A stretch of 64,000 bases of DNA from Hyphococcus sp. (GTDB lineage Bacteria > Pseudomonadota > Alphaproteobacteria > Caulobacterales > Parvularculaceae). The notes beneath the pieces are model-generated. The model saw nothing but the letters and a program-made list of their open reading frames with translations. It was not told the DNA's origin and searched no databases. The translations under genes were made by a program, and so were the position numbers. Position 1 is the first letter of the stretch, and each line of letters opens with the position of its first letter. The DNA is taken from contig JABDJK010000089.1 in NCBI GenBank assembly GCA_013002535.1, positions 1-64,000 of the forward strand, in the 5' to 3' direction. Shown in pieces: positions 19,065 to 57,719 of the stretch.

Positions 19065-19078
19065 ACACCAATAACGCG
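19065..19078 (+). promoter_or_regulatory. ACACCAATAACGCG motif, copy 1
   Basis: This exact 14-mer also occurs at 19245-19258 (opposite strand) and 33848-33861 (before motA). No gene start lies within 500 bp downstream, so this copy has no obvious target. Confidence 0.5.
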
Positions 19079-19244
19079 ATATTGGTTTATGCAAAGTAAA
19101 ATTTGTGCCGCAATCAGTCGTCGGGAAAAAGTTTGTAAATTTTTTAGCTGGTCTAAATCAACGAAGCTTGCTCGATTTATGATATTTGCAAAATTTTGCG
19201 CTGAAAACGCTCACTTAACGAGTTAACCAGATTTAAACACAATT

Positions 19245-19258
19245 CGCGTTATTGGTGT
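19245..19258 (-). promoter_or_regulatory. ACACCAATAACGCG motif, copy 2 (inverted)
   Basis: Exact reverse complement of copy 1, 167 bp away and 9 bp right of a TTAA-N6-TTAA box. It points left, into the gene-poor region. Confidence 0.5.
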
Positions 19259-19592
19259 TGTGTGCGGACCATTTCTCTCTTCACCAAGCAGAAATCGCAC
19301 CGGGGCCGGCAAGCGTTGAATTTTCTGATTTATACGCAAAGCCGGCCCAATTTTTTGATTGGGCGCTAACAATCACGCTGAAAATCGCACGCCAGTAAAT
19401 CCAAAACATTAAGCGTCTTGGATTCAAATTTGACTATTATTTCTCTTATTCAGTTTCTTGTGGAGCATGAAAAACACTCGTGCAAACGAGTCTTCTAATT
19501 GAATAAGTTCATTTTGGTGTGATTTTGTTAACTAATTTCCTTGACCCAGAAACATGGCCGGCGAGCGGGCAACACGAGCAAAGGATACGACG

Positions 19593-19784
19593 ATGCGAAA
19601 GTTTAAAATTAAGAAAATTGCCGCCTCTGTAACGGCTTTGGGATTTACGCTCATTCTCGCCCAACCTGCTTTGAGCGATACATTGCCAGCGGCCCAATTC
19701 GCGGGCGCGAAGATACCGGCAACTTCCATGCTGTTTGCTTTGGGTCTTGGTTTAATCTTCCTTAAACTTCGGCACGAAGAATGA
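19593..19784 (+). CDS. 63-residue secreted protein with CTERM-like tail
   Basis: The ATG at 19593 follows AAAGGA (19580-19585). The product has a basic start (MRKFKIKKIAASVTALG), a hydrophobic core and a likely cleavage after ALS, then a short spacer (DTLPAAQFAGAKIPATS), a second hydrophobic helix (MLFALGLGLIFL) and a basic/acidic end (KLRHEE). Proline motif, helix and basic end resemble protein-sorting tails of the PEP-CTERM/VPxxx-CTERM type, but the mature part is only about 15 residues. Alternatively it is simply a two-helix microprotein. It is isolated from other genes. Confidence 0.5.
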   Translation: MRKFKIKKIAASVTALGFTLILAQPALSDTLPAAQFAGAKIPATSMLFALGLGLIFLKLRHEE

Positions 19785-20011
19785 TTCTTTCGGCCTGCAT
19801 CATTTAGCTGATGATCTGCGTGATTAGGAAATACTTGCCAATTAGATTGATACGGCGCGGCGCATCAGTTTCAAATCTGCTCGAAAAATTAAAACGGTTT
19901 GCTAACCATGAAGCTGTCCGTGCATCGGCAATCAACAAATTGTTAACCATGATACACCATATCGGTGTTGTTCGTCGGTGCGTTTTGCAATCGCCTAAAA
20001 GCAATTTGGCG

Positions 20012-20028
20012 TTGTTCGCAGCGAACAA
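20012..20028. repeat. Short perfect palindrome (8-bp arms)
   Basis: TTGTTCGC-A-GCGAACAA is an almost gapless palindrome 6 bp before a larger inverted repeat. With a 1-bp centre it is more like an operator than an RNA hairpin. Confidence 0.5.
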
Positions 20029-20034
20029 TTTAAA

Positions 20035-20090
20035 GTCAGGCTGGCTGGCGCCACTCCCACTCGACCTGCCAGTCAGCCAGCCAGCCTGAC
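20035..20090. repeat. Inverted repeat with 15-bp perfect arms
   Basis: Arms GTCAGGCTGGCTGGC (20035-20049) and its exact complement (20076-20090) surround 26 bp. As RNA this is a very stable hairpin, ending 106 bp before the ATG of the next gene. No T-run follows, so a simple terminator is less likely than a structured leader or mobile-element end. Confidence 0.6.
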
Positions 20091-20196
20091 AAATTCTATG
20101 AGTTATGAGCGTTGTGGTCCAATAAATTGAATTTTTAAACAGGAACACGCTAAGCGGCGATCAATAATAAATACACAATCCGAAACGAGGGGCATT

Positions 20197-20586
20197 ATGA
20201 CATCGACAAATCAGCAATTTGACGAAGAGCTTCGAAACATTAGTGCTATAGCCGATAAAAATGCCGATATAGATGAACTTTTTGGCCACGCACAAAACAT
20301 TATCGTCACACTACAGAGCATTGAATATTCAAACACGCTAGACGAAGACCCAATTGGCGCGGCCGCTTGTGATCCTATTGAAAGCCTCGGTGAAATAGCT
20401 GAACGCCTGGCGCTAACAAATTCAAAAAGCTTGTCAGATCTAGAAAAGAAAGTTGTTGTATGGAAGTCGCTGACTGATGAAGAAACACTCGCGCCCGATA
20501 CCGGCCCAGTTGACGAACGATTGCTACTTTCAATCGTAAATGATGTGGAAGCATTGACGAAACATCGTGTATCAACGTCTCCCTGA
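20197..20586 (+). CDS. Acidic helical protein of unknown function
   Basis: The gene encodes 129 residues. The ATG at 20197 follows ACGAGGGGC. The product is acidic, has no signal peptide or membrane helix and is predicted mostly helical (EESLGEIAERLALTN-like and SLSDLEKKVVVWKSL stretches). I do not recognise it. It ends 8 nt from the end of the convergent fliM gene, at the left border of the flagellar cluster, so a flagellar accessory role is possible but unproven. Confidence 0.55.
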   Translation: MTSTNQQFDEELRNISAIADKNADIDELFGHAQNIIVTLQSIEYSNTLDEDPIGAAACDPIESLGEIAERLALTNSKSLSDLEKKVVVWKSLTDEETLAPDTGPVDERLLLSIVNDVEALTKHRVSTSP

Positions 20587-20594
20587 CACAAAAC

Positions 20595-21530
20595 TCACAA
20601 CGTAGCGCCAAGGTCATTTTTTACATTCAAATTCCGCAATTCAACCAATTTTACAGCCTTTTTATTTTGCGCAGCGCCCAATATCCCGCTACCGATCGTC
20701 AACTCACCGTCCACAGTCTGCAAATTTAGATCAACTGAGCGATCAAATTTTTCGAGCGGAATCATATCACCAATTTTAAGCTTTGGAATTTCTGAAAGCG
20801 CCATCTCAAAGCGATCCAACGTGACGCAGAGATCGATTGGAGTAGCCGCTACATTAGCTTTCATAATTTTTCGCCAATGGGTCTCATCGCCGTCGTTTTC
20901 ATGCGTAAGAATTAGGTTTTCCAGCAGTCCGCATTTTTCAATGAAATCGAGAGGAAAATGGAAAACCATCGCATTCATTTTCTCCGACCCAATGGAAATA
21001 TCGAGATATATGCTTAGAAACGTCTTGGTGGTTACTTTATCTAAAAACTCTGCACCACTGTCGCATAACTTTATTGGAGCTAACGTAAATAACGGGGCCT
21101 CAGTTGGTTCATGAAAATCATGAATGCTAAACTGCTGAGCGAATTTTTCTAAATATATGCTTATAAGCGCATAGTCCAATTCTGTCGGCGCTACATTTTT
21201 CACAGCGGTTAAACTACACCCGAGCAGAGACTGGCTTAGTGATACAAGAAACGTTTGTGAAAGTTCCACCAGCACAAATTCGTCTTCTGAGTTTCCCTGT
21301 AGTCTAAAATAGTACGCCTCAGAATTTGTATCTGACTGTATCGCATTCTTGTTTTGCATGGTTATACCCGACGCAACAAACTCAATTGATTGCGCGGTCA
21401 ATTCATACATTGACAGTGTTGCTAGCTGTAAAATACTCAATGCAAGCCCATCCAAATGAGGAAAAGCGCTGTTATCGAAATTCGTTTGCCGAATTTTTTT
21501 GGCTAGAATGTTTTGCTTCTGATCATCCAT
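20595..21530 (-). CDS. fliM: Divergent flagellar motor switch protein FliM
   Basis: The gene encodes 311 residues. The C-terminal 80 residues form a SpoA/FliN-type domain (TPIDLCVTLDRFEMALSEIP, KLKIGDMIPL, TVDGELTIGSGILG), and the middle resembles the CheC-like FliM domain (LSQTFLVSLSQSLLG). The N-terminal LSQDEIDALL-type CheY-binding motif is not recognisable (MDDQKQNILAKKIRQTNF). FliM with FliG and FliN forms the C-ring that sets rotation direction. It is separated from fliG/fliN and is transcribed divergently from motB. Confidence 0.75.
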   Translation of the reverse strand: MDDQKQNILAKKIRQTNFDNSAFPHLDGLALSILQLATLSMYELTAQSIEFVASGITMQNKNAIQSDTNSEAYYFRLQGNSEDEFVLVELSQTFLVSLSQSLLGCSLTAVKNVAPTELDYALISIYLEKFAQQFSIHDFHEPTEAPLFTLAPIKLCDSGAEFLDKVTTKTFLSIYLDISIGSEKMNAMVFHFPLDFIEKCGLLENLILTHENDGDETHWRKIMKANVAATPIDLCVTLDRFEMALSEIPKLKIGDMIPLEKFDRSVDLNLQTVDGELTIGSGILGAAQNKKAVKLVELRNLNVKNDLGATL

Positions 21531-21610
21531 ACATTGAGCCCCGATCGCATTTTTTCGAAAATTGCAATCGACATATGTATAATCTCTTAATCCTAATACA
21601 AATTCTCCAC

Positions 21611-21618
21611 ATTGGTGT
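21611..21618 (-). promoter_or_regulatory. ACACCAAT motif between fliM and motB
   Basis: On the minus strand ACACCAAT points toward fliM, 81 bp before its ATG at 21530. It is only 16 bp before the motB ATG, too close to serve as an upstream element for that gene. Confidence 0.45.
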
Positions 21619-21633
21619 TAGCCGCAATTTAAC

Positions 21634-22524
21634 ATGCAAACGATACGCAACACTGACCCTGTAGTGAGCGTATCGACCGTGATTAACCCCCAGCAAGTAA
21701 TTATAAAAAAGGTAAAAAAGGTTTCGGGCGGCGGTCATCATGGCGGCGCCTGGAAAGTCGCTTATGCCGATTTCGTAACAGCTATGATGGCGTTTTTTCT
21801 ATTGATGTGGCTTCTAAATGCGACAACTGAGGACCAACGCAAAGGAATTGCAGATTATTTCAATCCGACAATTCCCGTCAGCCCAATTTCTGGCGGCGGA
21901 AAAGACGTATTGAACGGATCGTCAGTGTTTGCTGAGGACACGCACGCGAAAGACGGTACAGGAGGTGCAAAGACTACGGGATCACGTGAAGAGAAATCCA
22001 TCATCAAGGATACAAATGACAATATCGAAGTCGCTCATACCGTTGAGGATGCGGATGCAAAGGCGGCCGCGTTGGATCAATTGAATGACCAATTACTTAA
22101 TCGGCTCAATGAAGAGCGAACAAAGGGATTGGCGCAACACATCCAAACTCGCGTCACACCCGAAGGACTTGTTATCGAGCTCGTTGATATTGACGGTAGT
22201 CCATTGTTCGAGTTGGGATCGACCCGTGCGTCAGCAACAATGAATCTAATACTTGGAGTGGTTACAAAAAGTTTACGCGCAGTTAACAACGATATTTCGA
22301 TAGTAGGGCACACTGACGGCCGACCATATTCCGGGAACCGCAATTATTCAAATTGGGAACTATCAACCGACCGTGCGCATATCGCACGAAGGCTAATGAT
22401 TGATACTGGTTTGCCCCTTGACCAGATAAGTGAAGTCGCCGGCAAAGCCGATACGGACCCTCTAGTCGATGATAAGTTAGCGCCTCAAAATCGCAGGATT
22501 TCAATCATAATACTTAGAAATTGA
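21634..22524 (+). CDS. motB: Flagellar stator protein MotB
   Basis: The gene encodes 296 residues. A short cytoplasmic N-terminus with HHGGAWKVAYADFVTAMMAF leads into one transmembrane helix carrying the proton-path Asp46. A plug/linker rich in Gly and Asp follows, then a C-terminal OmpA-like peptidoglycan-binding domain (VGHTDGRPYSGNRNYSNWEL, then TDRAHIARRLM). MotB with MotA forms the proton-driven stator. Here motB is far from motA (33895) and divergent from fliM. Confidence 0.93.
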   Translation: MQTIRNTDPVVSVSTVINPQQVIIKKVKKVSGGGHHGGAWKVAYADFVTAMMAFFLLMWLLNATTEDQRKGIADYFNPTIPVSPISGGGKDVLNGSSVFAEDTHAKDGTGGAKTTGSREEKSIIKDTNDNIEVAHTVEDADAKAAALDQLNDQLLNRLNEERTKGLAQHIQTRVTPEGLVIELVDIDGSPLFELGSTRASATMNLILGVVTKSLRAVNNDISIVGHTDGRPYSGNRNYSNWELSTDRAHIARRLMIDTGLPLDQISEVAGKADTDPLVDDKLAPQNRRISIIILRN

Positions 22525-22617
22525 TGCGGATCTTTTCTGCTTATTTGAATTTTAACCACTTTCCGAGAATGTGAGGCTCTCTTTGGTAAACAAAAGTACA
22601 AACTGTGGGTTGTTATT

Positions 22618-23922
22618 ATGGGTCTTTCATCTTCTCTAAATGCAGGCGTTATGGGGCTTGCGGTAAACGCAACGAAACTGGCGACTATCTCAGACAATAT
22701 CGCGAATTCCGAAACATACGGATATAAACGAGCCGATACGGACTTTACCAATATGGTTTTGCGGCAAGGCGCCGGCGCCTATACAGCCGGCGGCGTGCGC
22801 GTGGCGACATTTAAAGACATCGCCTCACAAGGCGCGCTTGTCACTACGGCGAATAGTACAGACATTTCGATTGCGGGCCGAGGCATGTTGCCTGTAACCA
22901 CTTCGGCAGGACTTACGGCGCAATCTGGCGACAGGCCGCTTTTGCTAACAACAACGGGTTCATTTTCCCCTGACCAGAACGGTTACCTGCGGACATTGAG
23001 CGGCAATTTCTTGATGGGGTGGCCGGCGGAAATCGACGGAACAGTTAATGTTCCTGGACGTAACAGCTCGACCGGATTAGAGCCAGTCCAAATCGTTGGA
23101 AATCAATTCATTGCATCGCCGACATCAAATGTTGAACTGGGATTGAACATTCCTGCATCCGCCACGCAGGCTGGCGCCGACGGCGCTAGTTTCGATTTGC
23201 CCGTTGAATATTTTGATTCGCTCGGTCGGTCTCAAACGCTATCTTTTGAATTTATTCCGTCTGTTCCAGCAACCGGCGCTAGTAATACTTGGACTGTAGA
23301 AGTTACAGACCAAGCTGGTGATCCAACAACGCCGATTGCATCATTTGACGTGGTGTTCGATGACGCGACCGGGTCAGGCGGCTCCATCCTATCTGTAACG
23401 CCCGGCGGCGGCGCAACTTATGATTCAACGACCGGCATCGTTAATGTCAATGTATCTTCAGGACCGATCTCCGTTGCTATCGGAGCGCCGGGTGAATCTG
23501 GTCTTCTTACGCAACTCTCCTCGTCGTTTGCTCCGGTTGGCGTTCGCGCTGACGGCGCGCCAATCGGAAGTCTCAACGCGATTGAAATTAACGAGCAGGG
23601 TATGCTCGAGGCAATTTACGATACTGGGTTTCGCCGCGTAATTTATCAAATTCCACTTGCGGATGTACCGAATGTAAACGGTCTATCGGCGCTCGATAAT
23701 CAAACTTATTCTGTTTCCCAAGCTAGCGGTGATTTTTATTTTTGGGATGCAGGCAGCGGACCGGTCGGGTCCACCATAGGGTTTTCTTTGACCGAGTCTA
23801 CAACGGACATTGCCGAAGAACTCACGGACCTCATTCAAACGCAACGGGCATATTCGTCCAACGCAAAAATCATTCAGACCGTTGACGAGATGCTTCAAGA
23901 AACCACGAATTTAATTCGGTAA
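22618..23922 (+). CDS. flgE: Flagellar hook protein FlgE
   Basis: The gene encodes 434 residues. The N-terminus (MGLSSSLNAGVMGLAVNATK) and DNIANSETYGYKRADTDFTN are the rod/hook family start. The central region has the FlgE D2 feature (FDLPVEYFDSLGRSQTLSFE). The C-terminus has the conserved heptad helix (ELTDLIQTQRAYSSNAKIIQ). FlgE polymerises into the hook. It opens the flgE-flgK-flgL-flgI gene run. Confidence 0.9.
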   Translation: MGLSSSLNAGVMGLAVNATKLATISDNIANSETYGYKRADTDFTNMVLRQGAGAYTAGGVRVATFKDIASQGALVTTANSTDISIAGRGMLPVTTSAGLTAQSGDRPLLLTTTGSFSPDQNGYLRTLSGNFLMGWPAEIDGTVNVPGRNSSTGLEPVQIVGNQFIASPTSNVELGLNIPASATQAGADGASFDLPVEYFDSLGRSQTLSFEFIPSVPATGASNTWTVEVTDQAGDPTTPIASFDVVFDDATGSGGSILSVTPGGGATYDSTTGIVNVNVSSGPISVAIGAPGESGLLTQLSSSFAPVGVRADGAPIGSLNAIEINEQGMLEAIYDTGFRRVIYQIPLADVPNVNGLSALDNQTYSVSQASGDFYFWDAGSGPVGSTIGFSLTESTTDIAEELTDLIQTQRAYSSNAKIIQTVDEMLQETTNLIR

Positions 23923-23948
23923 TTGATTTAAAAATAGTGTGACAAAAA

Positions 23949-25406
23949 ATGAGCATATCTTCGGCGCTCAATAATGCGAATTCAGGACTTAGCGTCGCGT
24001 CACGGCGTGCGGGCGTTGTATCCAATAACATCGCAAATGCCCTAACGCCGGGATATGTGCGCCGCACAGCTAGCGTTAGCGAAAACGCCGTCGCGGGAAC
24101 GGGCGCAGGCGTAAAGTTTGACGGCGTTTCGCGGACGGTCGATCCAGCAATAACTAGTGACCGGCGCGGCGCGGAAAGCGTACAGGCGCGCGAACAAATT
24201 TCTGCATCGACCTATGCCTCAATCAATAGCGCTTTGGGCGAACCGGATGATTCCTTCAGCCTTTTCGCGCAATATCAACAATTTGAAACTTCTCTTCGGG
24301 GTTTGTCACAAACTCCGGAATCTCAACCACTGCAGGCCCAAGTCTTGGACGCAGCAAAAGCGCTAACAAACAAATTCAATCAATTAACGTCCCAGGCTCA
24401 AACTATACGACGTGATGCGGATGCGAAAATTGACAGCCTTGTTGACCAATTGAATGGAAAATTAGAGCAAATTGAAAAGTTAAATCACGAGATTTCGATT
24501 ACCGGCGCAGGGGGGCAAAATGCAACCGCGCTGGAAGATCAACGGCAACTCTTAATCGATGAGGTGTCAGAAGTAATTCCTGTGCGCGAAGTGAATCGAG
24601 GGAACGGTAAAGTTGATTTAATTACGGACGAAGGCGTTTTCTTAATTGCTGGTGCGGCGCGCCAAGTTGACTTTGACCAGGCGACAACGATCACTCCAAC
24701 CGAAACCCTGGAAAGCGGGGCGCTGTCTGGCCTCACAGTTTCTGGCGTATCTATTACGCCCAATACTGGCGGAACTTTCTCCTTAAAACAGGGGGCATTA
24801 GCCGGATTATTCGAAACGCGCGATCGTATTGCGGTTGAATTCCAAGCAAAAATCGACGGCCTGTCGCGCGATGTTATTGAGCGATTTGAAGGTATTGATC
24901 CCACCACAACGATCGACGCACCGGGTTTGTTTACTGACGCCGGCGCGGCTTTCGATCCAACAAACGAAATTGGCCTTGCCGGACGGATTACTGTCAATGC
25001 AGCCGTCGATCCTGATAAAGGCGGCGCCGCATGGCGAATTCGTGACGGTTTAGGGGCGGTTTCGGAAGGCGCCGCTGGCGCATCTGGCGTCATTAATACA
25101 ATGTTGGATGCGCTAACTGCATTAAAAACTCCGCCAGCTAATACAGGGCTCAATGGCGAGATTGATGCGGCGCGCGCGGCAGCGGATGTGACTTCAGCAA
25201 TCGGCTCCAGGCGTATTAGCTCTGAAAATCGGCTCACCGCTGTCACTGCTAGAACACAAGCATTGGTCGATGCCGAAATCGGTGCGACTGGTGTCGATAC
25301 AGATTTCGAATTGCAACAGCTCATATTGATTGAACAGGCATTTGCAGCGAATGCACGGGTCATTCAAATTGCCGACCGACTTATTCAGCAGTTGGTGGAA
25401 CTTTAA
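23949..25406 (+). CDS. flgK: Hook-filament junction protein FlgK (HAP1)
   Basis: The gene encodes 485 residues. The N-terminus contains SGLSVASRRAGVVSNNIANA, typical of HAP1. The middle has a predicted coiled region (DSLVDQLNGKLEQIEKLNHE) and ALEDQRQLLIDEVSE, diagnostic for FlgK. The C-terminal helix is FELQQLILIEQAFAANARVI. It joins hook to filament. The stop at 25404-25406 abuts the flgL ATG at 25407. Confidence 0.9.
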   Translation: MSISSALNNANSGLSVASRRAGVVSNNIANALTPGYVRRTASVSENAVAGTGAGVKFDGVSRTVDPAITSDRRGAESVQAREQISASTYASINSALGEPDDSFSLFAQYQQFETSLRGLSQTPESQPLQAQVLDAAKALTNKFNQLTSQAQTIRRDADAKIDSLVDQLNGKLEQIEKLNHEISITGAGGQNATALEDQRQLLIDEVSEVIPVREVNRGNGKVDLITDEGVFLIAGAARQVDFDQATTITPTETLESGALSGLTVSGVSITPNTGGTFSLKQGALAGLFETRDRIAVEFQAKIDGLSRDVIERFEGIDPTTTIDAPGLFTDAGAAFDPTNEIGLAGRITVNAAVDPDKGGAAWRIRDGLGAVSEGAAGASGVINTMLDALTALKTPPANTGLNGEIDAARAAADVTSAIGSRRISSENRLTAVTARTQALVDAEIGATGVDTDFELQQLILIEQAFAANARVIQIADRLIQQLVEL

Positions 25407-26405: not shown

Positions 26406-26409
26406 AAAA

Positions 26410-27513
26410 ATGAAATTGTTTAAACTCTTCCTGACAGCGCTAATTGCGATGGCGCCCCAAGTCGCCTATGGCGCGATCAAGCTTAAAGATCTCGTCGAAA
26501 TAGAAGGTGTCCGTGGTAACGATTTGGTCGGTTATGGCCTTGTGGTAGGCCTAAACGGCACCGGTGACGGCTTGCGCAACATTCCCTACACTGAAGAAGC
26601 GCTGTCCAGCCTACTGGAACGCCTTGGCGTTAATGTTCAAGGTGAAGATTTTCGCCCCAAAAATGTCGCGGCTGTGTTGGTGACAGCGACATTGCCGCCA
26701 TTCGCGCGAACGGGTGCGCAGATTGACGTCACGGTATCCGCAATTGGCGACGCAAAAGATCTAAATGGCGGCACCCTTATTATGACACCCCTTAATGCAG
26801 CTGACGGCAATATTTATGCTGTTGCGCAAGGCCCAGTGCTAATTAGCGGATTTTCCGCTGAAGGAAACGCCTCCTCCCTTACTCAAGGGGTGCCGACGAC
26901 GGGTACAATTCCAAATGGCGGACGCGTAGAACGTGAACTTGATTTTGATTTCGCCGCATTATCGAGTATCCGCCTTTCCTTGCGTGCTCCTGACTTTACG
27001 ACGGCTTTGCGCATTGAAACGGCAATCAACAACGGCCTCAAGGCGCCCATTGCAAAAATGTTGGACGCGACCGCTGTTGAAATTCAAATCGACACGCGCT
27101 TCCCTTCTCCGGCACATTTGATCAGCGAAATTGAAAATTTCGAAATTACCCCGGCTCAAAAAGCAAGAGTCGTTGTGGATCAACGATCTGGCACAATTGT
27201 ACTTGGTTCAGAAGTTCGAATCTCAGGCGTTGCCGTCGCACAAGGTAATCTGTCAATTCGCATACAAGAATTACCGGGCGTTTCGCAGCCAAACCCATTT
27301 TCGCGCAATGGGGAAACTATTGTTGTGCCCCACACGGAAATATCTGTGGACGATGCTGGCGAAAACAAAATTGGTGTTCTTGAAGAGAATATCACTTTGG
27401 CGGATTTAGTTGACGGCCTAAACGCCCTTGGAGTTGGCCCGCGCGAAATGATTGACATCTTAAAGTCGATTAAAGCGGCTGGGGCATTACATGCCGAACT
27501 TGTTCTTCAATAA
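26410..27513 (+). CDS. flgI: Flagellar P-ring protein FlgI
   Basis: The gene encodes 367 residues from the ATG at 26410 with a Sec signal (MKLFKLFLTALIAMAPQVAYG). The mature protein starts with IKLKDLVEIEGVRGNDLVGY and contains GLNGTGDGLRNIPYTEEAL, FARTGAQIDVTVSAIGDAKDL and GGTLIMTPLN, strong FlgI matches. It forms the periplasmic P ring around the rod. The frame is open further upstream inside flgL, but the signal peptide fixes the start. Confidence 0.94.
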   Translation: MKLFKLFLTALIAMAPQVAYGAIKLKDLVEIEGVRGNDLVGYGLVVGLNGTGDGLRNIPYTEEALSSLLERLGVNVQGEDFRPKNVAAVLVTATLPPFARTGAQIDVTVSAIGDAKDLNGGTLIMTPLNAADGNIYAVAQGPVLISGFSAEGNASSLTQGVPTTGTIPNGGRVERELDFDFAALSSIRLSLRAPDFTTALRIETAINNGLKAPIAKMLDATAVEIQIDTRFPSPAHLISEIENFEITPAQKARVVVDQRSGTIVLGSEVRISGVAVAQGNLSIRIQELPGVSQPNPFSRNGETIVVPHTEISVDDAGENKIGVLEENITLADLVDGLNALGVGPREMIDILKSIKAAGALHAELVLQ

Positions 27514-27540
27514 AAACTATAAATGAAAAATTGAAAGAAT

Positions 27541-30389: not shown

Positions 30390-31918
30390 GCTACCCTCTC
30401 CTCTTCATCGAGCCATGATTTTATCAAAAGCGCAGTGTCGTCAGTCCGTTCATTCGCCAAATTTCGCAGCGCCGACAATGGGTCAGACTCCTCGACCAAT
30501 CTTTCTTGCGACGGCGCGCCGGCGGCAATAGGCGCCTGAATTGCCTCAGGGACCGGAAGCGGCCGAATTGATAGGAGCGGCTTCACGACAAATAATCCAA
30601 GAATTATTGAAACAACCGATAAAATTCCGATTTGAATAATTGTCATCAAGTTCTTGCTCAGAAAGCTGCTTATCATCGACTCTTCAACAAATACGCCGTC
30701 GCTTGGAATTGCTTTGAATGGAAGGCTCTTTACTGTCAGCGTATCGCCACGCGTTTCATTCAATCCGATCGCATTTGCAACGAGTTCGCTTAAGTCCTCA
30801 ATTTCACTCGGATCTCGCGCAACTAGCTCCAGTTCGCCATCTACAGTTTCTGATTCTGTATAATTGATAAGCACCGCAGCGCTGATCTTTTTAATAGCGC
30901 CAGGCGATTTCTCGCGCTCCCGGCGAACTTCTGAAATGCTATATTTTACGACTTCATCAGTTTGCGTACGTTCTGTAGCATTCTGAGACCCGCTGCCGGT
31001 ATCGCCTTCAGGCAAATTGCTCGCAACCGTCACTGCGCCCGAATTTGCGCCAGTTGATTTCTCCGACATTTCTGTCGTCTCTTTTCCAGAGATAACACGA
31101 CCATTTGGGTCAAAGACCCGCTCTGAAACGGCCTCTCGTTCAGTATCGATTTCCAATGATATTTGAACGCGCGCATTGCCCGGCCCCACCCGCGCTTCTA
31201 AAATATTTAAAACATCTTCCTCGATTGCTTTTTCACGCGTTTCAGCGCCTGTCGTAGCTTTGTAGGCATCATGAATTTTCCCCGGGCTCAAAATAACGCC
31301 GCGTTCGGCATCTATTACTGCGACTTGCTCCGCTGAAAGATCAGCGACTGCAGACGCAACAAGATAACGCACTGAATTTGCTTGTTGCGGCTTTAAGACG
31401 CCGCGCGCCATCGTTACCGTCACAACGGCTTTTGGTTCTGATCTGTTTCGGCGGAACGTTGCGTTTTGTTGCTTTGCTATATGAACTCGCGCCGCCTGGA
31501 TGCCGGGCGTCGCCAATATGGTGCGTGCTAATTCACCTTCTATGGCGCGCCAATATGCTACATCAAACACGTCAGAAGAGGTGGAAAACCCATTTAATTC
31601 TTCTAAAAGCTCGTATCCCGCTTGGCCCTGGCGCGGAAGTCCATCGCGCGCAAGCGCCATTCGCACAAAATCTCGTTTTTTGGTGGGAACGTAAATTGTG
31701 TCACCGCGCACATCCATCGTGACATTCATTTGTTCAAGCGCTGAAATCACGTCACCCGCCGTCTCAGGTTCGAGACCGCTGTACAAAAACGCCATTTCCG
31801 GTGCTGACGCAGTACGCGCAAGCATTGAAAAGGCGATGGTTGTTGCTGCGATTGCCGCCAGCAAAACGAACCGCTTGATAAGTGGCAATGCATTCCACGT
31901 AGATATCAAACCTTGCAT
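30386..31918 (-). CDS. fliF: Flagellar MS-ring protein FliF
   Basis: The gene encodes 510 residues. Transmembrane helices lie near residues 15-35 and 425-448 around the periplasmic ring-building domains. Motifs include YSGLEPETAGDVISALEQMN, ALARDGLPRQGQAGYELLEE and VHIAKQQNATFRRNRSEPKA, all typical of FliF. The cytoplasmic C-terminus (LRNLANERTDDTALLIKSWL) is the FliG-binding end. It is the first gene of the fliF-fliH-fliN-fliP-fliG operon (4-nt overlaps) and divergent from fliL. Confidence 0.94.
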   Translation of the reverse strand: MQGLISTWNALPLIKRFVLLAAIAATTIAFSMLARTASAPEMAFLYSGLEPETAGDVISALEQMNVTMDVRGDTIYVPTKKRDFVRMALARDGLPRQGQAGYELLEELNGFSTSSDVFDVAYWRAIEGELARTILATPGIQAARVHIAKQQNATFRRNRSEPKAVVTVTMARGVLKPQQANSVRYLVASAVADLSAEQVAVIDAERGVILSPGKIHDAYKATTGAETREKAIEEDVLNILEARVGPGNARVQISLEIDTEREAVSERVFDPNGRVISGKETTEMSEKSTGANSGAVTVASNLPEGDTGSGSQNATERTQTDEVVKYSISEVRREREKSPGAIKKISAAVLINYTESETVDGELELVARDPSEIEDLSELVANAIGLNETRGDTLTVKSLPFKAIPSDGVFVEESMISSFLSKNLMTIIQIGILSVVSIILGLFVVKPLLSIRPLPVPEAIQAPIAAGAPSQERLVEESDPLSALRNLANERTDDTALLIKSWLDEEERVA

Positions 31919-32056
31919 TTTAACTCCGAAAAATTATCCAGGCGTCAACACGATACCCGTAACACGTGAGTTCTCGTTTACCATTTGATCATTAATAGGA
32001 GGTTACAGTGCCCGCACGCCAAGGGCATGAAAATACGTCAATCTCAGGTTGTGATT

Positions 32057-33847: not shown

Positions 33848-33861
33848 ACACCAATAACGCG
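33848..33861 (+). promoter_or_regulatory. ACACCAATAACGCG motif, copy 3, before motA
   Basis: Exact match to the two copies near 19.1 kb. It starts 47 bp before the motA ATG, points toward it and is followed by a TTTTTTT tract. A hairpin-like CAGGC/GCCTG after motE (33813-33830 area) separates it from the preceding operon. Confidence 0.55.
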
Positions 33862-33894
33862 TTTTTTTAGGGCGCGACGGGAGATTTGTGACCT

Positions 33895-37034: not shown

Positions 37035-37746
37035 TGTAGGATATGTCGGGTTATCTCGAAATGCGGGCTTGATGCGACAGCTCGATTCGGTCGCCAATAA
37101 CATCGCAAATGTTTCTACCAATGGCTATCGCCGGGAAGGAAATGTCTTTGCGGAGCATATAAAAGCATTAGATGGTCGTGACCCGAGCCTTTCAGTTTCA
37201 ACCCTATCGAGGCGATTTGTTGATTTAAGTCCAGGCGATGTAACAACGACATCAAATCCACTTGATTTTGCGATTGAGGGGGACGGATTTTTCCTTGTCG
37301 AGACTCAAAATGGACAGCGATTAACGCGCGATGGCGCGTTCTCTCGAAACGCGCAAAATGAGTTGGTCACCTCAGGCGACATGCGCGTCCTAGATGACAC
37401 TGGCGGCGCAATCGTCATTCCAGCACAAGCAAAATCGATTGAAGCCGCCAATGACGGTTTAATTTTCGCCGACGGGGAACCGATCGGACGCCTGGGGGTC
37501 GTCACAGCAGACCCGGCGGGTCTTGTTCGCGAAGGCGGTAATTTATTCAGGGCCGAAAACGGCTTTGATCCCGCGGAGGCGGTACGGGTTCGCCAATTTG
37601 CCGTCGAGGGTTCGAATGTAAACGCCGTAGCCGAGCTCGCGCGTTTGATTGAAGTTCAACGCACATACGAAATTAGCCAAAAATTTTCGAAGGACGATGA
37701 TGAACGAATAAATCGAACAATCAGGGTTTTGGGACACCAATCGTAG
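37027..37746 (+). CDS. flgF: Flagellar proximal rod protein FlgF
   Basis: The gene encodes 239 residues. The N-terminus (YVGLSRNAGLMRQLDSVANN, IANVSTNGYRREGNVFAEH) and the middle NPLDFAIEGDGFFLVETQNG are FlgF-type, and the C-terminal helix is VNAVAELARLIEVQRTYEIS. It builds the proximal rod. It overlaps the preceding gene by 8 nt and lies 29 nt before flgG. An ACACCAAT motif lies in its last codons. Confidence 0.9.
   Translation: MDNVGYVGLSRNAGLMRQLDSVANNIANVSTNGYRREGNVFAEHIKALDGRDPSLSVSTLSRRFVDLSPGDVTTTSNPLDFAIEGDGFFLVETQNGQRLTRDGAFSRNAQNELVTSGDMRVLDDTGGAIVIPAQAKSIEAANDGLIFADGEPIGRLGVVTADPAGLVREGGNLFRAENGFDPAEAVRVRQFAVEGSNVNAVAELARLIEVQRTYEISQKFSKDDDERINRTIRVLGHQS
37734..37741 (+). promoter_or_regulatory. 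ACACCAAT motif before flgG
   Basis: The motif lies in the last codons of flgF, 42 bp before the flgG ATG and pointing toward it. Because it overlaps coding sequence it could be chance, but the spacing matches other copies. Confidence 0.35.
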
Positions 37747-37775
37747 TATCCGTGACCATCAAAGGAGACAAATAA

Positions 37776-42340: not shown

Positions 42341-42363
42341 ATTGGTTACTAACCAATTACGCG
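42341..42363. promoter_or_regulatory. Palindrome and ACCAATTACGCG site between fliK and flgJ
   Basis: ATTGGTT-ACT-AACCAAT (42341-42357) is a perfect palindrome whose right arm continues as ACCAATTACGCG, one base different from ACCAATAACGCG of the 14-mer. Its centre is 42 bp before flgJ and 52 bp before fliK, so one dimeric site could control both divergent units. Confidence 0.45.
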
Positions 42364-42390
42364 AATATCCGTTTACTTTTGAGGACCGCA

Positions 42391-47166: not shown

Positions 47167-47174
47167 ACACCAAT
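47167..47174 (+). promoter_or_regulatory. ACACCAAT motif before flgB
   Basis: The motif starts 73 bp before the flgB ATG, points toward it and lies just outside the preferred start of divergent fliI. Confidence 0.5.
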
Positions 47175-47239
47175 TAAGTTTATTTTCAACTTTCCGGTTT
47201 ATTTTCATACTTCATAATCCTTAACAGGACGTAGTTGGA

Positions 47240-48009: not shown

Positions 48010-48019
48010 GGTGAATAAG

Positions 48020-48328: not shown

Positions 48329-48347
48329 TTTTTTATTGTTGTAACAA

Positions 48348-48611: not shown

Positions 48612-48614
48612 AAA

Positions 48615-51429: not shown

Positions 51430-51438
51430 GGAATTGTC

Positions 51439-52218: not shown

Positions 52219-52219
52219 C

Positions 52220-53308
52220 ATGAGCAATGAAAATAAGAGCGCTTCGGAAAAATCGCATGACGCCACGCCACAAAAATTACAACGATCGCGCGAAAAGGGC
52301 GATGTCCCTTACTCCACGGAAGTCACTGCGGCTGCGACATATGCCGGTTTCTTCGTTGCTCTTGCCTTCAGTTTCTCTTGGAGCGGCAGCAAGGTATTAG
52401 CAACCCTTTCAACTTTCCTTGGGCGAGCAGAAGAGCTTGGGTTTGCCCTTCTTTCGCCCTACGGCCCACAATTCATGTCGGAAATCGCATTCGAATTAAT
52501 TTTTGCGATGTCGCCATTCATCGCAGCTGTCATGTCGACCGCATTAATTTCAATATATGGGCAACGCGCAATGACTTTTGCCCCGACTAAACTGAAGCCA
52601 AAATTTTCTCGCATTTCTATCGTCGATAATGCGAAAAAGAAGTTCGGCGCCGATGGTATTTCCGAATTCGCAAAAAGCGCTGCAAAGATCATTGCAATTT
52701 TTATTGTTCTATATGTTGCGTTTCGTGACCGGTTCGCGGAATTACCCTTACTTTCATCATACCATGCAACGGCGATAGGTTCGATATTATTTCGTGAAAC
52801 GATATTTTTTGTTGGATTAATTACTGCTGTCGCCGCACTTATAGCCGCGATTGATTTGCCATGGCGGCTCTATCAACACAATAATAAATTAAAGATGACG
52901 TATCAAGAAGTGAAGGAAGAGAATAAAGAAACAGAAGGCGATCCTGCGATGAAATCGGTACGACGGCAACGCGCCGAAGAGATGGCAACGAACCGAATGA
53001 TGAGCGATGTGCCAACAGCAAATGTTGTTATCGTGAATCCCACGCATTTTGCAGTCGCTCTTAAGTGGAAAGACGACAGGAAAAGCGCCCCAATATGCGT
53101 TGCAAAAGGGGTAGATGAAATTGCCGCCCGCATAAGGGAAACGGCTTCTGTATCGGGCGTGCCCATAAAAAGTGACCCGCCAACAGCAAGATCTATTTAT
53201 TCGGTAGTTGAATTAGGAGAGGAAATAAGACGCGAACACTATGCCGCAGTCGCTGCCGCGCTACACTATGCGGAAACTCTTCGAAAACGAAAAAGGGGAG
53301 CGCAATAA
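52220..53308 (+). CDS. flhB: Flagellar export switch protein FlhB
   Basis: The gene encodes 362 residues from the ATG at 52220, the usual start (EKSHDATPQKLQRSREKGDV). Four transmembrane helices are followed by the self-cleaving cytoplasmic domain with NPTH (Asn273) in VVIVNPTHFAVALKW. Cleavage at N-P switches substrates from hook to filament in concert with FliK. fliJ follows 1 nt later. Confidence 0.95.
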   Translation: MSNENKSASEKSHDATPQKLQRSREKGDVPYSTEVTAAATYAGFFVALAFSFSWSGSKVLATLSTFLGRAEELGFALLSPYGPQFMSEIAFELIFAMSPFIAAVMSTALISIYGQRAMTFAPTKLKPKFSRISIVDNAKKKFGADGISEFAKSAAKIIAIFIVLYVAFRDRFAELPLLSSYHATAIGSILFRETIFFVGLITAVAALIAAIDLPWRLYQHNNKLKMTYQEVKEENKETEGDPAMKSVRRQRAEEMATNRMMSDVPTANVVIVNPTHFAVALKWKDDRKSAPICVAKGVDEIAARIRETASVSGVPIKSDPPTARSIYSVVELGEEIRREHYAAVAAALHYAETLRKRKRGAQ

Positions 53309-53309
53309 C

Positions 53310-53735
53310 ATGAAATTGCAAGACTTGAATATACTTAAAAAGATCGCGCACACAAAACGAAATATTGAAGAGCATAAACTGAGAAAATTAGAATTTGAAA
53401 AAAATGCAATGCTGCAACATTCCAGAAGCATGCAGGAGGTGGCGCGATCTACGAATTTGGAAGAGAATTTCGCTGGAACGGCCAGCACGCTCCTAAATTA
53501 TCATGCCTATATCGAATTTCTTTTAAATTTGGCCGATCAGAAGCAAAGCGCCGCCCGCTACCTAGCGCAACTTATCCAACCCCAACAAAAGCAACTGCGA
53601 TCTGAAATCAGGCGAGAGGTCGCAATCGACGAGTTGCGTCGCCAGTCAGAATTGCTTCAGAAAAAGGTTCAGATTGAAGCAGATGAAAATGCAATAGAAG
53701 AGTTCAGACTATATAGACGAAAAAACTCGGTTTAA
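53310..53735 (+). CDS. fliJ: FliJ-like coiled-coil export chaperone
   Basis: The gene encodes 141 residues from the ATG at 53310, preceded by AGGGGAG within the end of flhB. The product is a nearly continuous helical coiled coil (IAHTKRNIEEHKLRKLEFEK, VAIDELRRQSELLQKKVQIE). Position after flhB and overall pattern fit FliJ, the FliI stalk partner. FliJ proteins have little sequence identity, so the name is provisional. Confidence 0.6.
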   Translation: MKLQDLNILKKIAHTKRNIEEHKLRKLEFEKNAMLQHSRSMQEVARSTNLEENFAGTASTLLNYHAYIEFLLNLADQKQSAARYLAQLIQPQQKQLRSEIRREVAIDELRRQSELLQKKVQIEADENAIEEFRLYRRKNSV

Positions 53736-53746
53736 TTCTTCGGCTT

Positions 53747-54199
53747 TTACTGACTGGCAAGCGTGCCAATAATCTCGCGAACCTGGTGCTTTAAAGTAGC
53801 ATCGAGCCGTCGAACAGAATGAATGAGTTCTTCTTCTTCGCAAGAGAATATTGTTGGTTCTTTTATCGGATACTGCTTTGTTAACAAATCGCGAAACAGA
53901 TCATTCGGCGTAATGTCAAGCGCCATGCAAATTGAAAGCATTCTACTCGCCGGCAAACGATTAAAACCCTTTTCATATTTTTGAATTTGTTGAAACGTGA
54001 TCCCGAGTCTTTCGGCCAACGCCTTTTGCGACAATCCACTATCTTTACGAAGGGCGTTAAGTCTGCGTCCGACGTAAATGTCTACGATATTTTGGTCTGG
54101 TGTTTTTGGTTTTTTTATAGACACTGGTAAACAACTCGCACTGTATAAGACGTGACATAGTTTGACGCGGCGAATGCAAACATACGCCACTACCGTCAT
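53747..54199 (-). CDS. XRE-family helix-turn-helix regulator
   Basis: The gene encodes 150 residues from the ATG at 54199; no clear ribosome binding site, and a GTG at 54124 would give 126 residues starting VSIKKPKTPDQN. The HTH is clear: VGRRLNALRKDSGLSQKALA, ERLGITFQQIQKYEKGFNRL, then MLSICMALDITPNDLFRDLL. The C-terminal 60 residues are an acidic helical tail. It ends 12 nt from the fliJ end, and its upstream region holds three ACACCAAT copies and two CtrA-type boxes, so autoregulation and cell-cycle input are plausible. Confidence 0.82.
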   Translation of the reverse strand: MTVVAYVCIRRVKLCHVLYSASCLPVSIKKPKTPDQNIVDIYVGRRLNALRKDSGLSQKALAERLGITFQQIQKYEKGFNRLPASRMLSICMALDITPNDLFRDLLTKQYPIKEPTIFSCEEEELIHSVRRLDATLKHQVREIIGTLASQ

Positions 54200-54215
54200 A
54201 GCTACGTGGAATTAG

Positions 54216-54329
54216 TTAACCAGACATTAAAATACACCAATGCGCGCCTCATAGGAAGATACACCAATGGGCGGCACCATACGAACTTGAACACACCAAT
54301 AGAGCGAATTTTAATTAACAAATCTTTAA
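54216..54329. promoter_or_regulatory. Regulatory region: two CtrA-type boxes, three ACACCAAT copies
   Basis: TTAA-N7-TTAA occurs at 54216-54230 and 54315-54329, matching the CtrA consensus. Between them ACACCAAT occurs at 54234-54241, 54261-54268 and 54293-54300, all on the plus strand, spaced 27 and 32 bp. Downstream letters vary (GCGCG, GGGCGG, AGAGCG). The array lies 17-130 bp before the XRE gene on the opposite strand, and about 650-760 bp before the GGDEF gene. Confidence 0.6.
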
Positions 54330-54954
54330 TTTTGTCGAAGTGTCCAAAATAGTTGGTTGTCGACCGATATCCGGCAGAATTATGGAAAAGTGCCATGTTA
54401 CACGTTGTATGAGCATTGCTGCACTTGTTGACGCTGGATGTTTTCTGACAATCTATCAACGGCTAAAATTTTGCGCCAACAACCGCTCCAATGCAAACTC
54501 ATCGACGCCTATTAACAAATCACGTAAAAAATCCGCATGGGCAAATAAATAAACCATGAGAAAACGGCGAAACCAGCGCCGCGGAAAGTTATTTGAGTAG
54601 ACACCATTGGTATCCAAAGCCGCCGAGATCAGAAGGAATATAACGACCTTGTAAATTAGTAAACGAGGCCGTTTTTATGCCAGTCCTCCAAGCTCAAAAT
54701 TCACGCCAATAGAGTTGATTTTCACCATGAGCCGAAACGTCGCGACATCTGCGGAATTACCTAACGAATGCGCAAGCCTATCGATGCACGCTTTGGCAAC
54801 GCCAGTTAAGAGAATGAACACTTAGTTTACGGTGATGATACAGCACTATTTAAAAACCGTTTAGGCGTGTCGACCAAAGACAAATTTTTGAATTCACGCC
54901 CAACATGATTAATTTTTTTACAATCAATACGTGTTCTAAACACTCGGCATTTAA
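54330..54954. other. Noncoding stretch before the GGDEF gene
   Basis: I see no gene I can support; the open frames on both strands lack ribosome binding sites and protein-like composition. A weaker motif copy (CACGCCAATAGAG at 54702-54714) lies here. A small RNA downstream of the triple array is possible but unsupported. Confidence 0.4.
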
Positions 54955-54967
54955 AGACCAATGGGCG
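54955..54967 (+). promoter_or_regulatory. AGACCAATGGGCG motif before the GGDEF gene
   Basis: One base different from ACACCAATGGGCG at 54261-54273. It starts 20 bp before the GGDEF ATG, closer than the other copies. Confidence 0.35.
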
Positions 54968-54974
54968 CAAAAAT

Positions 54975-55997
54975 ATGAGTGCATTGCATCCGAAAACGAC
55001 CCCCGCCGAGCTTGGCATCGACACGTTGAATGACTTGAAAAAAATGGCGATTTCGCCGTTTCCAACGCACTATGCGGTTTGGTTTTCACATCTCGAAAAG
55101 GCGAATAGTCAATTATCGACCGAAATTGAGCGAAGAGTGAATACCGGCGCTCATATTAGTGATAAATTCCTAGAAGAAGTTTACGAACGATATTTCCCTA
55201 CGCCTGATGCTGGCCCGGACGTTAGCGAATATATAAACGAGTTGTTGGATCAAACCAACACAGTCCAACAAATTTCAAACTCCCTGCATTCCAATACAGA
55301 ATTATTGCAGGAAGGCTTAACAGATGCGACCGTCCGAGCAGAAACGGAGTGCCAGACGCCTGCTGGGGCTGAAACATTTGTTGCTTCTCTGATCTCGACT
55401 GCAAAGAATGCAATCGAACGAAATGAAGCCCTCGAGCGCGACTTAATTGAGGCAAGCTCTACAATTGTAAGGCTCAAAAGCGATGTCGAGGCGATGGCCA
55501 AAGATGCGAATACCGATTTTCTTACGAAGATTTCGAACCGCAGGCATTTTTATAAGGAACTCGAGCGATTGATCAAAGCAGCTCATTACGACAACTCTGA
55601 ACTTTGTGTTGTAATTTGCGATGTTGATCACTTCAAAAAATTCAATGACAGTTACGGACATGATGTGGGGGACCAGGTTTTGGTGCTCGTCGCCGCAATA
55701 CTTCGAGATAACGTGAAAGGCCAAGACGTTGTTGCGCGATATGGCGGCGAAGAGTTTGCAATTATACTTCCAAATACGTCGCAAAAAGACGCTGTAAATC
55801 TTGCAAACACCATCAGAGAAGCTATCAGCCGAAGAAAATTGGTCGACCGTGCAACCAATGAACCACTTGGCTCTATAACGATGTCTTTCGGCGTGGCGCG
55901 CCTTTCGCCGATATCATCCAGTGAAAGCATCATAAAAGACGCTGATGCCGCCTTATATGATGCAAAACGCGCTGGTCGAAATCGCGTCCGCTATTAG
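54975..55997 (+). CDS. GGDEF diguanylate cyclase
   Basis: The gene encodes 340 residues. An N-terminal helical region of about 170 residues (TPAELGIDTLNDLKKMAISP, THYAVWFSHLEKANSQLSTE) leads to a GGDEF domain with DANTDFLTKISNRRHFYKEL, CDVDHFKKFNDSYGHDVGDQ and the active site GGEEF at 257-261. The inhibitory I-site RxxD is KGQD (248-251), so product inhibition may be weak. It makes c-di-GMP, a natural input to a flagellar regulon. There is no membrane helix. The PilZ protein at 4339 is a possible receiver. Confidence 0.92.
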   Translation: MSALHPKTTPAELGIDTLNDLKKMAISPFPTHYAVWFSHLEKANSQLSTEIERRVNTGAHISDKFLEEVYERYFPTPDAGPDVSEYINELLDQTNTVQQISNSLHSNTELLQEGLTDATVRAETECQTPAGAETFVASLISTAKNAIERNEALERDLIEASSTIVRLKSDVEAMAKDANTDFLTKISNRRHFYKELERLIKAAHYDNSELCVVICDVDHFKKFNDSYGHDVGDQVLVLVAAILRDNVKGQDVVARYGGEEFAIILPNTSQKDAVNLANTIREAISRRKLVDRATNEPLGSITMSFGVARLSPISSSESIIKDADAALYDAKRAGRNRVRY

Positions 55998-56186
55998 CAT
56001 TCACTGCGGAGCGCTACTTAATAAATTTAGCTAAGACTAGTCGATGTTTTTTTGCTTTGGCGAAATTCACCGCTTCTGCATTCACTCTGTATGCTTATTA
56101 AGACAACATTTATTCCCGATTAATCCAATTTCAACCGAGAGTTGATAATCAGGCATAAATAAAACATTCCAACGGAAGAAATAACC

Positions 56187-57614
56187 ATGAATATCCAAAA
56201 TCGAATTGCCGCCGAGCCTGGTTTTCGCGACAGTGTTAACATCATGGTCGATCGAGCGTTAAAGCTTACCGATCTTCCACCAGGATTGGCTGCAAATATA
56301 AACACTTGCACGGCTACCTACACCATCCGGTTTGGCGTCCGGCTTCGCGGCGAAGTTCACACTTTTACCGGGTATCGCGCAGTTCATTCCGATCATATGG
56401 AGCCTGTAAAAGGCGGTATTCGCTATGCTACGTCTGTCGATCAAGAAGAGGTCGAAGCACTTGCCGCATTGATGTCTTTTAAGTGCGCTCTTGTGGAAGC
56501 GCCATTTGGAGGGTCTAAGGGCGGACTCGCAATAGACCCCGCTGATTGGAGTGAAGATGAACTTGAAAAAATCACTCGAAGATTCGCACATGAGCTTGTT
56601 AAGCGCGACTTGATCAATCCGTCACAGAACGTTCCGGCGCCAGACATGGGCACTGGCGAACGAGAAATGGCGTGGATTGCCGATGAGTATCGGCGAATGA
56701 ATACAACTGATATTAACGCCCGCGCCTGCGTTACCGGCAAACCACCACATGCAGGAGGTATCGCAGGTCGTGTGGAAGCAACAGGCCGCGGCGTTCAGTT
56801 TGCTATTCGCGAATTTTTTAGACATCGCGAGGATCTAGAGGCTGCGGGCCTCTCAGGCACGATCGACGGAAAGACAGTAATCGTTCAGGGCTTGGGCAAT
56901 GTAGGCTATCACGCGGCTCTCTTTCTATCTACCGAAGACGGCGCGAAGATAACGGCAGTGATTGAACGCGACGGCGCTATATTAAATGAAGACGGGATCA
57001 ATATCTGCGAGCTTAAGCAACATATCGATTCAACCGGCGGGGTTATAGGTTTTGCCGGCGGAAAATACTTCGAATATGGTAATGTTCTTCTCGAAAAGCG
57101 ATGCGATATACTGATACCTGCAGCACTTGAAGGCGCCATCAATCTCTCAAATGCCGATCAAATCAAGGCAAAACTCATCGTAGAAGCCGCAAACGGTCCG
57201 GTTACGGCGGCTGCGGACGAGCTTTTGCGAAAGCGAGGCTGTGTAATAATCCCAGATTTATATGCGAATGCCGGCGGTGTAACAGTTTCATATTTTGAGT
57301 GGGTCAAAAATCTATCGCATATTCGATTCGGGCGAATGCAGCGCCGCCAGGAAGAAGCACGGCAGAATGAATTAATGGTCGCAATCGAAAGCATGACTGG
57401 CGCGAAATTCTCCGAACAGTTTAGAAACAATTACAAAAATGGCGCCGGCGAAATTGACCTAGTACGTTCGGGTCTCGACGACACGATGCGGATTTCTTAT
57501 CAGAACGCTCGCGAAATCTGGCGGAGTGAAGACGCATGTGAAGATTTGAGAATGGCATGTTATATCTTGGCGATACGCCGAATAGCAACTTCGTATTCTG
57601 CGTTAAATCTTTGA
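56187..57614 (+). CDS. Glu/Leu/Phe/Val-type dehydrogenase (probable glutamate dehydrogenase)
   Basis: The 475-residue product has the catalytic region with PVKGGIRYATSVDQEEVEAL, ALMSFKCALVEAPFGGSKGG, NVPAPDMGTGEREMAWIADE, and a Rossmann domain starting VIVQGLGNVGYHAALF. Reversible oxidative deamination of glutamate is the likeliest reaction. It stands alone between GGDEF and tolC genes and looks more GC-rich than them. Confidence 0.9.
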   Translation: MNIQNRIAAEPGFRDSVNIMVDRALKLTDLPPGLAANINTCTATYTIRFGVRLRGEVHTFTGYRAVHSDHMEPVKGGIRYATSVDQEEVEALAALMSFKCALVEAPFGGSKGGLAIDPADWSEDELEKITRRFAHELVKRDLINPSQNVPAPDMGTGEREMAWIADEYRRMNTTDINARACVTGKPPHAGGIAGRVEATGRGVQFAIREFFRHREDLEAAGLSGTIDGKTVIVQGLGNVGYHAALFLSTEDGAKITAVIERDGAILNEDGINICELKQHIDSTGGVIGFAGGKYFEYGNVLLEKRCDILIPAALEGAINLSNADQIKAKLIVEAANGPVTAAADELLRKRGCVIIPDLYANAGGVTVSYFEWVKNLSHIRFGRMQRRQEEARQNELMVAIESMTGAKFSEQFRNNYKNGAGEIDLVRSGLDDTMRISYQNAREIWRSEDACEDLRMACYILAIRRIATSYSALNL

Positions 57615-57711
57615 TAGTATAGATTAACGTTTTTGACGATACACAATGCGTTGCCGACAGCAACGCCATTCATATATTGTTGCCGATAAATAAAGATTTC
57701 GGGAATTATAT

Positions 57712-57719
57712 ACACCAAT
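57712..57719 (+). promoter_or_regulatory. ACACCAAT motif before tolC-like gene
   Basis: The motif starts 66 bp before the ATG and points toward it, a spacing close to that before flgB. An imperfect relative (ATACACAATGCG) lies about 80 bp further upstream. Confidence 0.5.

Follow-up and report, generated by a model that had tools for sequence, protein, structure and literature searches.

What reads the eight-base word ACACCAAT, which recurs in front of flagellar genes in a 64,000-nucleotide stretch of Hyphococcus sp. DNA (assembly GCA_013002535.1, contig JABDJK010000089.1, positions 1 to 64,000; hereafter the window)? The original prediction, made from the letters of the window, had taken the word for a regulatory site common to flagellar and type I secretion genes. 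We suggest, with a probability of roughly 0.7, that ACACCAAT is the operator half of an XRE-family regulator encoded in the same flagellar cluster, which would act as a local brake on CtrA-driven promoters.

Local enrichment and proposed operator structure

The ten listed positions of ACACCAAT, and a coding copy at 27370, all proved exact. These 11 copies compare with a mean of 1.46 and a maximum of 5 in dinucleotide shuffles (0 of 100 reached 11), and the predicted excess over chance was confirmed by the top rank of ACACCAAT among 8,601 8-mers, counted as strand pairs, in the noncoding DNA of the window (9 copies, with 0.30 expected). Noncoding DNA and gene calls were those of a purpose-made codon-usage gene caller. 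The word also ranked first of 17,255 in the noncoding flagellar-cluster DNA of seven relatives with the regulator (23 copies, 0.87 expected) and 1,266th of 10,608 in six relatives without it (2 copies, 0.39 expected); because inherited copies across relatives are not independent, only the ranking in the window is a fair test. With coding DNA included, ACACCAAT stood at rank 14 in the window, mostly behind GC-rich words.

The whole genome (3.44 Mb) holds 83 copies of ACACCAAT and 23 of the word read backwards, an excess that recurred in each of 40 genomes searched and was therefore taken as coding bias. Outside the window, 72 copies were counted against approximately 77 predicted from scaled window shuffles, 54 inside called genes and 18 not, and the genome-wide scan suggested with the original prediction thus gave no genome-wide signal. 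Across the genome, the extended pattern ACACCAATNNMGCG occurs four times, each time within this flagellar cluster, and a genome-wide regulon was rejected on this ground. ACACCAAT is a local flagellar motif. A second cluster on contig C107 (L061), with further intergenic copies, was also rejected, as the genes there gave no link.

The candidate operators of the flagellar promoters and the sites upstream of the XRE gene are the following:

33848 to 33864, forward strand: candidate motA operator, ACACCAAT-N5-GTTT
47167 to 47183, forward strand: candidate flgB/fliI operator, without GWW, overlapping a CtrA-like box at 47174
21602 to 21618, reverse strand: candidate fliM/motB operator, ACACCAAT-N5-GAAT, adjoining a CtrA-like box at 21618 to 21632
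54234 to 54250, forward strand: site upstream of the XRE gene, ACACCAAT with the second half absent (CCTC)
54261 to 54277, forward strand: site upstream of the XRE gene, ACACCAAT-N5-GCAC
54293 to 54309, forward strand: site upstream of the XRE gene, ACACCAAT-N5-GAAT

Pfam matches identified the neighbouring genes as MotA (33895), FlgG (37776), a rod-binding protein of FlgJ type (42379), a rod protein (47240) that is FlgB by position, a FliM-type protein (20595 to 21530, reverse strand), MotB (21634), a TolC-type outer-membrane efflux protein (57778) and a GGDEF protein (54975). The predicted distances to start codons held, at 47 bp for motA, 42 for flgG, 73 for flgB, 66 for tolC and 88 for fliM (counted from the site's 5' end, or 81 when counted from position 21611).

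A logo of 31 aligned copies reads A.ACACCAAT.R.G.GWW. Eight of 39 copies had been dropped, namely the coding copy of the window and seven in relatives, three of which were called intergenic (L119 9348, L120 913 and L130 19904); among those kept, the copy at 37734 lies in the end of flgF. GWW stands five bases after CAAT at 6 of 10 window sites (6 of 11 with the coding copy) and at 7 of 72 elsewhere (Fisher 7e-4), and none of the 26 tested offsets besides N5-GWW was equally strong. The logo showed no symmetric palindrome, and no constant downstream hexamer was found among the 31 sites.

This arrangement has a published counterpart. In excerpts of the literature, on which all citations here rest, the site selected by PraR in systematic evolution of ligands by exponential enrichment (SELEX) is CAAC-N5-GTTG, in Rhizobium leguminosarum and Azorhizobium caulinodans (PMC5527310). 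CAAT-N5-GWW has the same spacing, and the letters of its right half agree in part. The chromatin immunoprecipitation (ChIP) motifs of XRE paralogs in Caulobacter combine one strong and one weak half-site (PMC10688885). ACACCAAT would accordingly resemble these systems as the strong half of an asymmetric two-part operator bound by the local XRE regulator, with a predicted preferred sequence of ACACCAATNNNGNG(A/T)(A/T); the real flanks directly before ACACCAAT are TTAAC or TTAT.

The XRE regulator and its co-occurrence with the sites

The proposed reader is encoded beside the three clustered copies:

53747 to 54115, reverse strand: putative binding protein, an XRE (HTH_3) regulator with an uncertain start codon and an open frame to 54199

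By its sequence this protein belongs to the XRE / HTH_3 regulators with a Cro/C1-type helix-turn-helix (HTH). Pfam HTH_3 matched at 8.9e-12, above the cut-off; the matches were HTH_3 and its kin, and PF06627 was not among them. An AlphaFold2 model (predicted local distance difference test, pLDDT, 80; predicted template modelling score, pTM, 0.54) consists of the HTH and two C-terminal helices, and Foldseek matched it to C.BclI, ClgR, lambda repressor and SinR. The recognition helix TFQQ[IV]QKYEKG is common to the protein and ten metK-linked proteins of PraR/CdxA type. The original prediction had known of no characterized regulator with such a site, a statement that has been overtaken both by this helix, encoded beside three copies of the word, and by the PraR-like geometry (PMC5527310).

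Orthologs of 63–72% identity were found in 9 of 39 relatives, all of the same genus. In a quick tree, which carried long-branch warnings, the window protein clustered with its same-genus (Marinicaulis) orthologs with a support of 99 in the Shimodaira–Hasegawa approximate likelihood ratio test (SH-aLRT). The place between lnt and metK in the window's own genome (G000) is occupied by another gene, the CdxA-type L298, whose neighbours we take to be lnt and metK, by eye and from a MetK signature. As judged from these comparisons, the window protein is a flagellar-cluster paralog, not an ortholog, of CdxA/PraR.

Other possible readers of the sites are the ancestral CdxA/PraR ortholog (lnt-cdxA-metK) and SciP, whose family label we take to be PF06627. 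G000 encodes both candidates, the CdxA-type L298, with the same recognition helix as the XRE protein, and, elsewhere in the genome, a PF06627 match. A CdxA homolog of at least 55% (identity only) is present in 13 of 14 same-genus relatives in a search that left out G015, G017 and G023, and because the homolog persists in three XRE-lacking relatives (G001, G002 and G011), a CdxA-type gene alone does not explain the sites. A PF06627 member likewise occurs in XRE-lacking G001 and G002 (none was found in the drafts G005, G011 and G014), and the published SciP motif, GCGNC, differs from ACACCAAT (PMC4287350). We consider it very unlikely that either protein, rather than the local XRE regulator, reads the sites.

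The comparison of relatives that had been proposed with the original prediction was carried out on flagellar clusters, some of them partial, fetched from 18 relatives. Eight genomes, G000 included, have the XRE gene in this type of cluster, and six have the same cluster type without an ortholog. Sites at motA, flgB/fliI, fliM/motB and the XRE gene itself recurred where the regulator is present. At motA, exact ACACCAAT lies 43–49 bp upstream in 8 of 8 regulator-bearing genomes and in 0 of 6 regulator-less genomes at that place, and in regulator-less relatives the conserved motA upstream sequence persists with the site missing. At flgB, the exact site lies 72–73 bp upstream in 7 of 8 regulator-bearing genomes; among the regulator-less genomes other than G023, it has one mismatch in G015 and is absent in G002, and the fetched DNA of the remaining three does not contain the region. 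In the fliM/motB gap, all seven regulator-bearing genomes with the region have ACACCA and, after an identical spacing, GAA, 88–96 bp from fliM (exact ACACCAAT in only two of them, G000 and G013); the six regulator-less genomes all lack ACACCA there. An exact site precedes the XRE gene in 7 of 8 genomes, and in G008 it carries one mismatch; the copy at 54293 is nearest in sequence to this conserved site. Judged by sequence, regulator-less relatives appear to have mostly lost the sites too.

Absence of the gene was consistent with a search of the 616–730 bp flhB-GGDEF interval of G002, G015 and G023, which gave no XRE match (tblastn, 1e-6). In a tree of six concatenated flagellar proteins, G013, which has gene and sites, is sister to G001, G015 and G023, which lack the gene; these four sit inside a clade (99/98) whose other members have the gene and the motA site. 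The labels for gene and motA site were entered identical, so their agreement on the tree follows from the labelling.

The same comparison bears on the suggestion, made with the original prediction, of a −35-like element of an alternative sigma factor. The shared orientation toward motA, flgB and fliM fits such an element. The distances to genes vary from 43 to 741 bp (in the XRE/GGDEF gap, from site to next gene, 230–262 bp in five relatives and 682–741 bp in the window), no constant partner hexamer accompanies the word, three sites stand before the XRE gene, a second half-site recurs at a fixed spacing, and the site is lost in relatives while conserved flanking sequence stays. A sigma element is therefore barely credible as an explanation.

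CtrA-like boxes and the probable sign of regulation

The preferred reading, an XRE operator acting as a brake, draws its second part from the surroundings of the sites. Only two exact TTAA-N7-TTAA boxes occur in the 64 kb, and both flank the triple site before the XRE gene:

54216 to 54230, forward strand: CtrA-like box, exact TTAA-N7-TTAA
54315 to 54329, forward strand: CtrA-like box, exact TTAA-N7-TTAA

When one mismatch is allowed, 6 of 9 sites have a CtrA-like box no more than 40 bp away, with 1.36 expected (p 5.5e-4; 9 of the 11 window copies were used, omitting 27370 and 37734). CtrA is encoded in the genome (425 bits, cut-off 350), and the box adjoining the fliM site is retained in relatives whether or not they have the XRE gene. 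A further element, GTAACCTCCT(A/C)TTAATGATCAAATGGTAAAC, is found upstream of fliF (approximately 31918 to 32020) in 13 of 13 same-type clusters with the region, again with and without the XRE gene; it is perhaps a CtrA-type control region.

We infer a brake on CtrA-driven promoters because the majority of the sites overlap or adjoin CtrA-like boxes. The regulator would bind at the motA, flgB/fliI and fliM/motB promoters as well as upstream of its own gene, hinder CtrA or polymerase there, and so most likely lower CtrA-driven transcription of the flagellar genes and of its own gene. Such a local brake would be comparable to the reported action of SciP and PraR.

A variant that overlaps with this reading keeps the XRE operator and has the regulator activate the flagellar genes. 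The orientation of the sites toward motA, flgB and fliM would suit activation, and RtrC of Caulobacter, which is not an XRE protein, activates or represses by position (PMC9648850). The overlap or abutment of the sites with CtrA-like boxes argues for repression, as does the precedent of PraR, RtrA/B and CdxA/B, which the excerpts describe as repressors at their named targets. We regard activation as somewhat unlikely.

Several points weigh against the proposed operator and brake. The offset and CtrA-box tests were chosen after the data had been seen, GWW is absent at 4 of 10 window sites (37734, 47167, 54234 and 54261), and the right half differs from the GTTG of PraR. MEME applied to PraR-bound promoters yields TTGCAA (PMC4149787), and the reb promoter of A. 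caulinodans is without a close match to the SELEX site (PMC4149787, PMC5527310). Site and gene do not match perfectly in the relatives: regulator-less G023 retains ACACCAGG, with ACACCA kept, at the motA place and keeps the flgB site exactly, regulator-less G002 has exact ACACCAAT 112 bp upstream of motA, inside the end of the gene that precedes it, and G008 has the XRE gene without the flgB site. G016 and G021, whose XRE homologs (66–67% identity) have another genomic context, with cytochrome oxidase genes as neighbours (by eye), and whose flagellar cluster is of another type, have no noncoding ACACCAAT before the homolog or in the flagellar cluster. The pattern of presence on the tree amounts to a minimum of two changes, too few for significance. 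At the XRE gene, the site may be located upstream of the promoter, a position compatible with activation too, and a small helical protein co-occurs with the sites almost equally well.

The small helical protein, remaining copies and known systems

This last gene lies beside fliM:

20197 to 20586, forward strand: small acidic helical protein, candidate partner

A homolog stands beside fliM in 7 of 8 regulator-bearing genomes (none was found in the draft G010) and in 0 of 6 regulator-less genomes. When four complete regulator-bearing clusters were compared with three regulator-less ones, two families were present in at least 3 of 4 and 0 of 3, the XRE gene and this small protein; the gene caller missed the XRE gene in some clusters, and in this comparison only the G013 query showed it. 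The protein is fast-evolving, with 117–130 residues; the window member had no Pfam match, and its model, a helical bundle (pLDDT 73), had no PDB match at E 0.001. In 16 genomes, 15 other homologs were found. Five lie near XRE genes, three of them on L297, L310 and L311 (with a degraded XRE frame) and two, judged from coordinates, on G014:C30 and G013:C8. Those on L312, L313 and L314 have no XRE gene within 1.5 kb. In G013, the copy beside fliM is adjoined by a second XRE gene (L306).

Just past the window, L297 (G000 C79, 64001 to 71270) comprises an HlyD-like secretion gene (by eye), then an XRE paralog and another gene of the small-protein family (6228 to 6665 of L297, reverse strand); it lies downstream of the window's tolC and RTX/cadherin genes.

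The sites could belong to a different regulator lost in the same lineages, for example one that works with the small helical protein. The nearly identical presence pattern of that protein speaks for this, in a comparison of gene content within flagellar clusters, and its lack of a Pfam match or of a structural match speaks against it, as does the half-site spacing, which points to a protein of XRE/PraR type. We judge this explanation improbable.

CinS and SinI are small anti-repressors of PraR and SinR (PMC10688885), and the small protein could be a further anti-repressor partner of XRE, a guess from its gene neighbourhood. More speculatively, XRE repressor and helical anti-repressor may form a transferable two-gene switch that was inserted into the flagellar clusters of Marinicaulis-like bacteria, came to act on CtrA-driven promoters of motor and rod genes and has disappeared, operators included, at least once; we hold this to be possible, though doubtful on present evidence.

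The remaining copies and relatives of the word are these:

19065 to 19081, forward strand: site, ACACCAAT-N5-GATA
starting at 19088, strand opposite to the 19065 site: AAACCAAT-N5-GTTA, overlapping that site
19242 to 19258, reverse strand: site, ACACCAAT-N5-GAAT
57712 to 57728, forward strand: site before tolC, ACACCAAT-N5-GATA
37734 to 37750, forward strand: copy before flgG, in the 3' end of flgF, no second half-site
42352 to 42368, forward strand: weak relative before flgJ, TAACCAAT-N5-GAAT, position weight matrix score 13.6
27370: exact coding copy of ACACCAAT, in flgI according to the original prediction

The copy before flgG is probably due to chance: a counterpart at the same place was found in 0 of 19 relative rows with sequence, and G006 has exact ACACCAAT 190 bp before flgG, inside flgF. 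The related words predicted at 42352 and 54955 were poorer matches, that at 42352 having two 8-mer mismatches and yet a perfect CAAT-N5-GAAT; it was not seen in the aligned rows of relatives. As a common regulatory site the word stood up in the flagellar cluster, through local enrichment and conservation. The link to type I secretion did not, as it depends on the single copy before tolC, which had no counterpart before the tolC of G014, the only relative tolC within the fetched DNA.

Downstream of the sites at 19065 and 19251, the window encodes a predicted secreted protein of 63 residues (19593 to 19784, forward strand) with an N-terminal signal and a C-terminal hydrophobic stretch (by eye), and a remnant at approximately 18500 to 18680 resembles, by eye, the first reading frame of an IS3-type transposase. 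Two full-length FlgG matches at separate places were found in 12 of 24 same-genus genomes, so that each of these has two flagellar clusters.

The window protein shares its HTH_3 family and recognition helix with PraR, PhrR and CdxA (lnt-praR-metK context), and its putative operator shares with theirs two half-sites five bases apart (PMC5527310); unlike PraR/CdxA, it is encoded in a flagellar cluster, and its operator would have a long strong left and a weak right half. Like RtrA, RtrB, CdxA and CdxB of Caulobacter, XRE paralogs whose motif has a strong and a weak half-site, it may bind asymmetrically, but their named targets are hfiA and gafYZ, and the excerpt of that paper mentions no dedicated local flagellar regulon (PMC10688885). 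XrpA of Cereibacter sphaeroides is also an XRE regulator that lowers a CtrA-dependent flagellar system; it differs in repressing ctrA and chpT rather than flagellar promoters and in being expressed with RpoN3 (PMC11999139). SciP of Caulobacter represses CtrA-activated genes from sites beside CtrA motifs (PMC4287350), and differs in family and motif. No description of this regulator or site was found in open-access literature, as represented by titles and the starts of abstracts.

The proposed pair links an orphan DNA motif with a named gene, as a regulator and operator open to direct test, and would give the CtrA flagellar cascade, outside Caulobacter, a further, local level of control. Regulator-bearing and regulator-less relatives, some of them with decayed sites, constitute a small natural experiment on the gain and loss of a regulon. 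If the two-gene switch were true, flagellar assembly in these bacteria would answer to a second signal.

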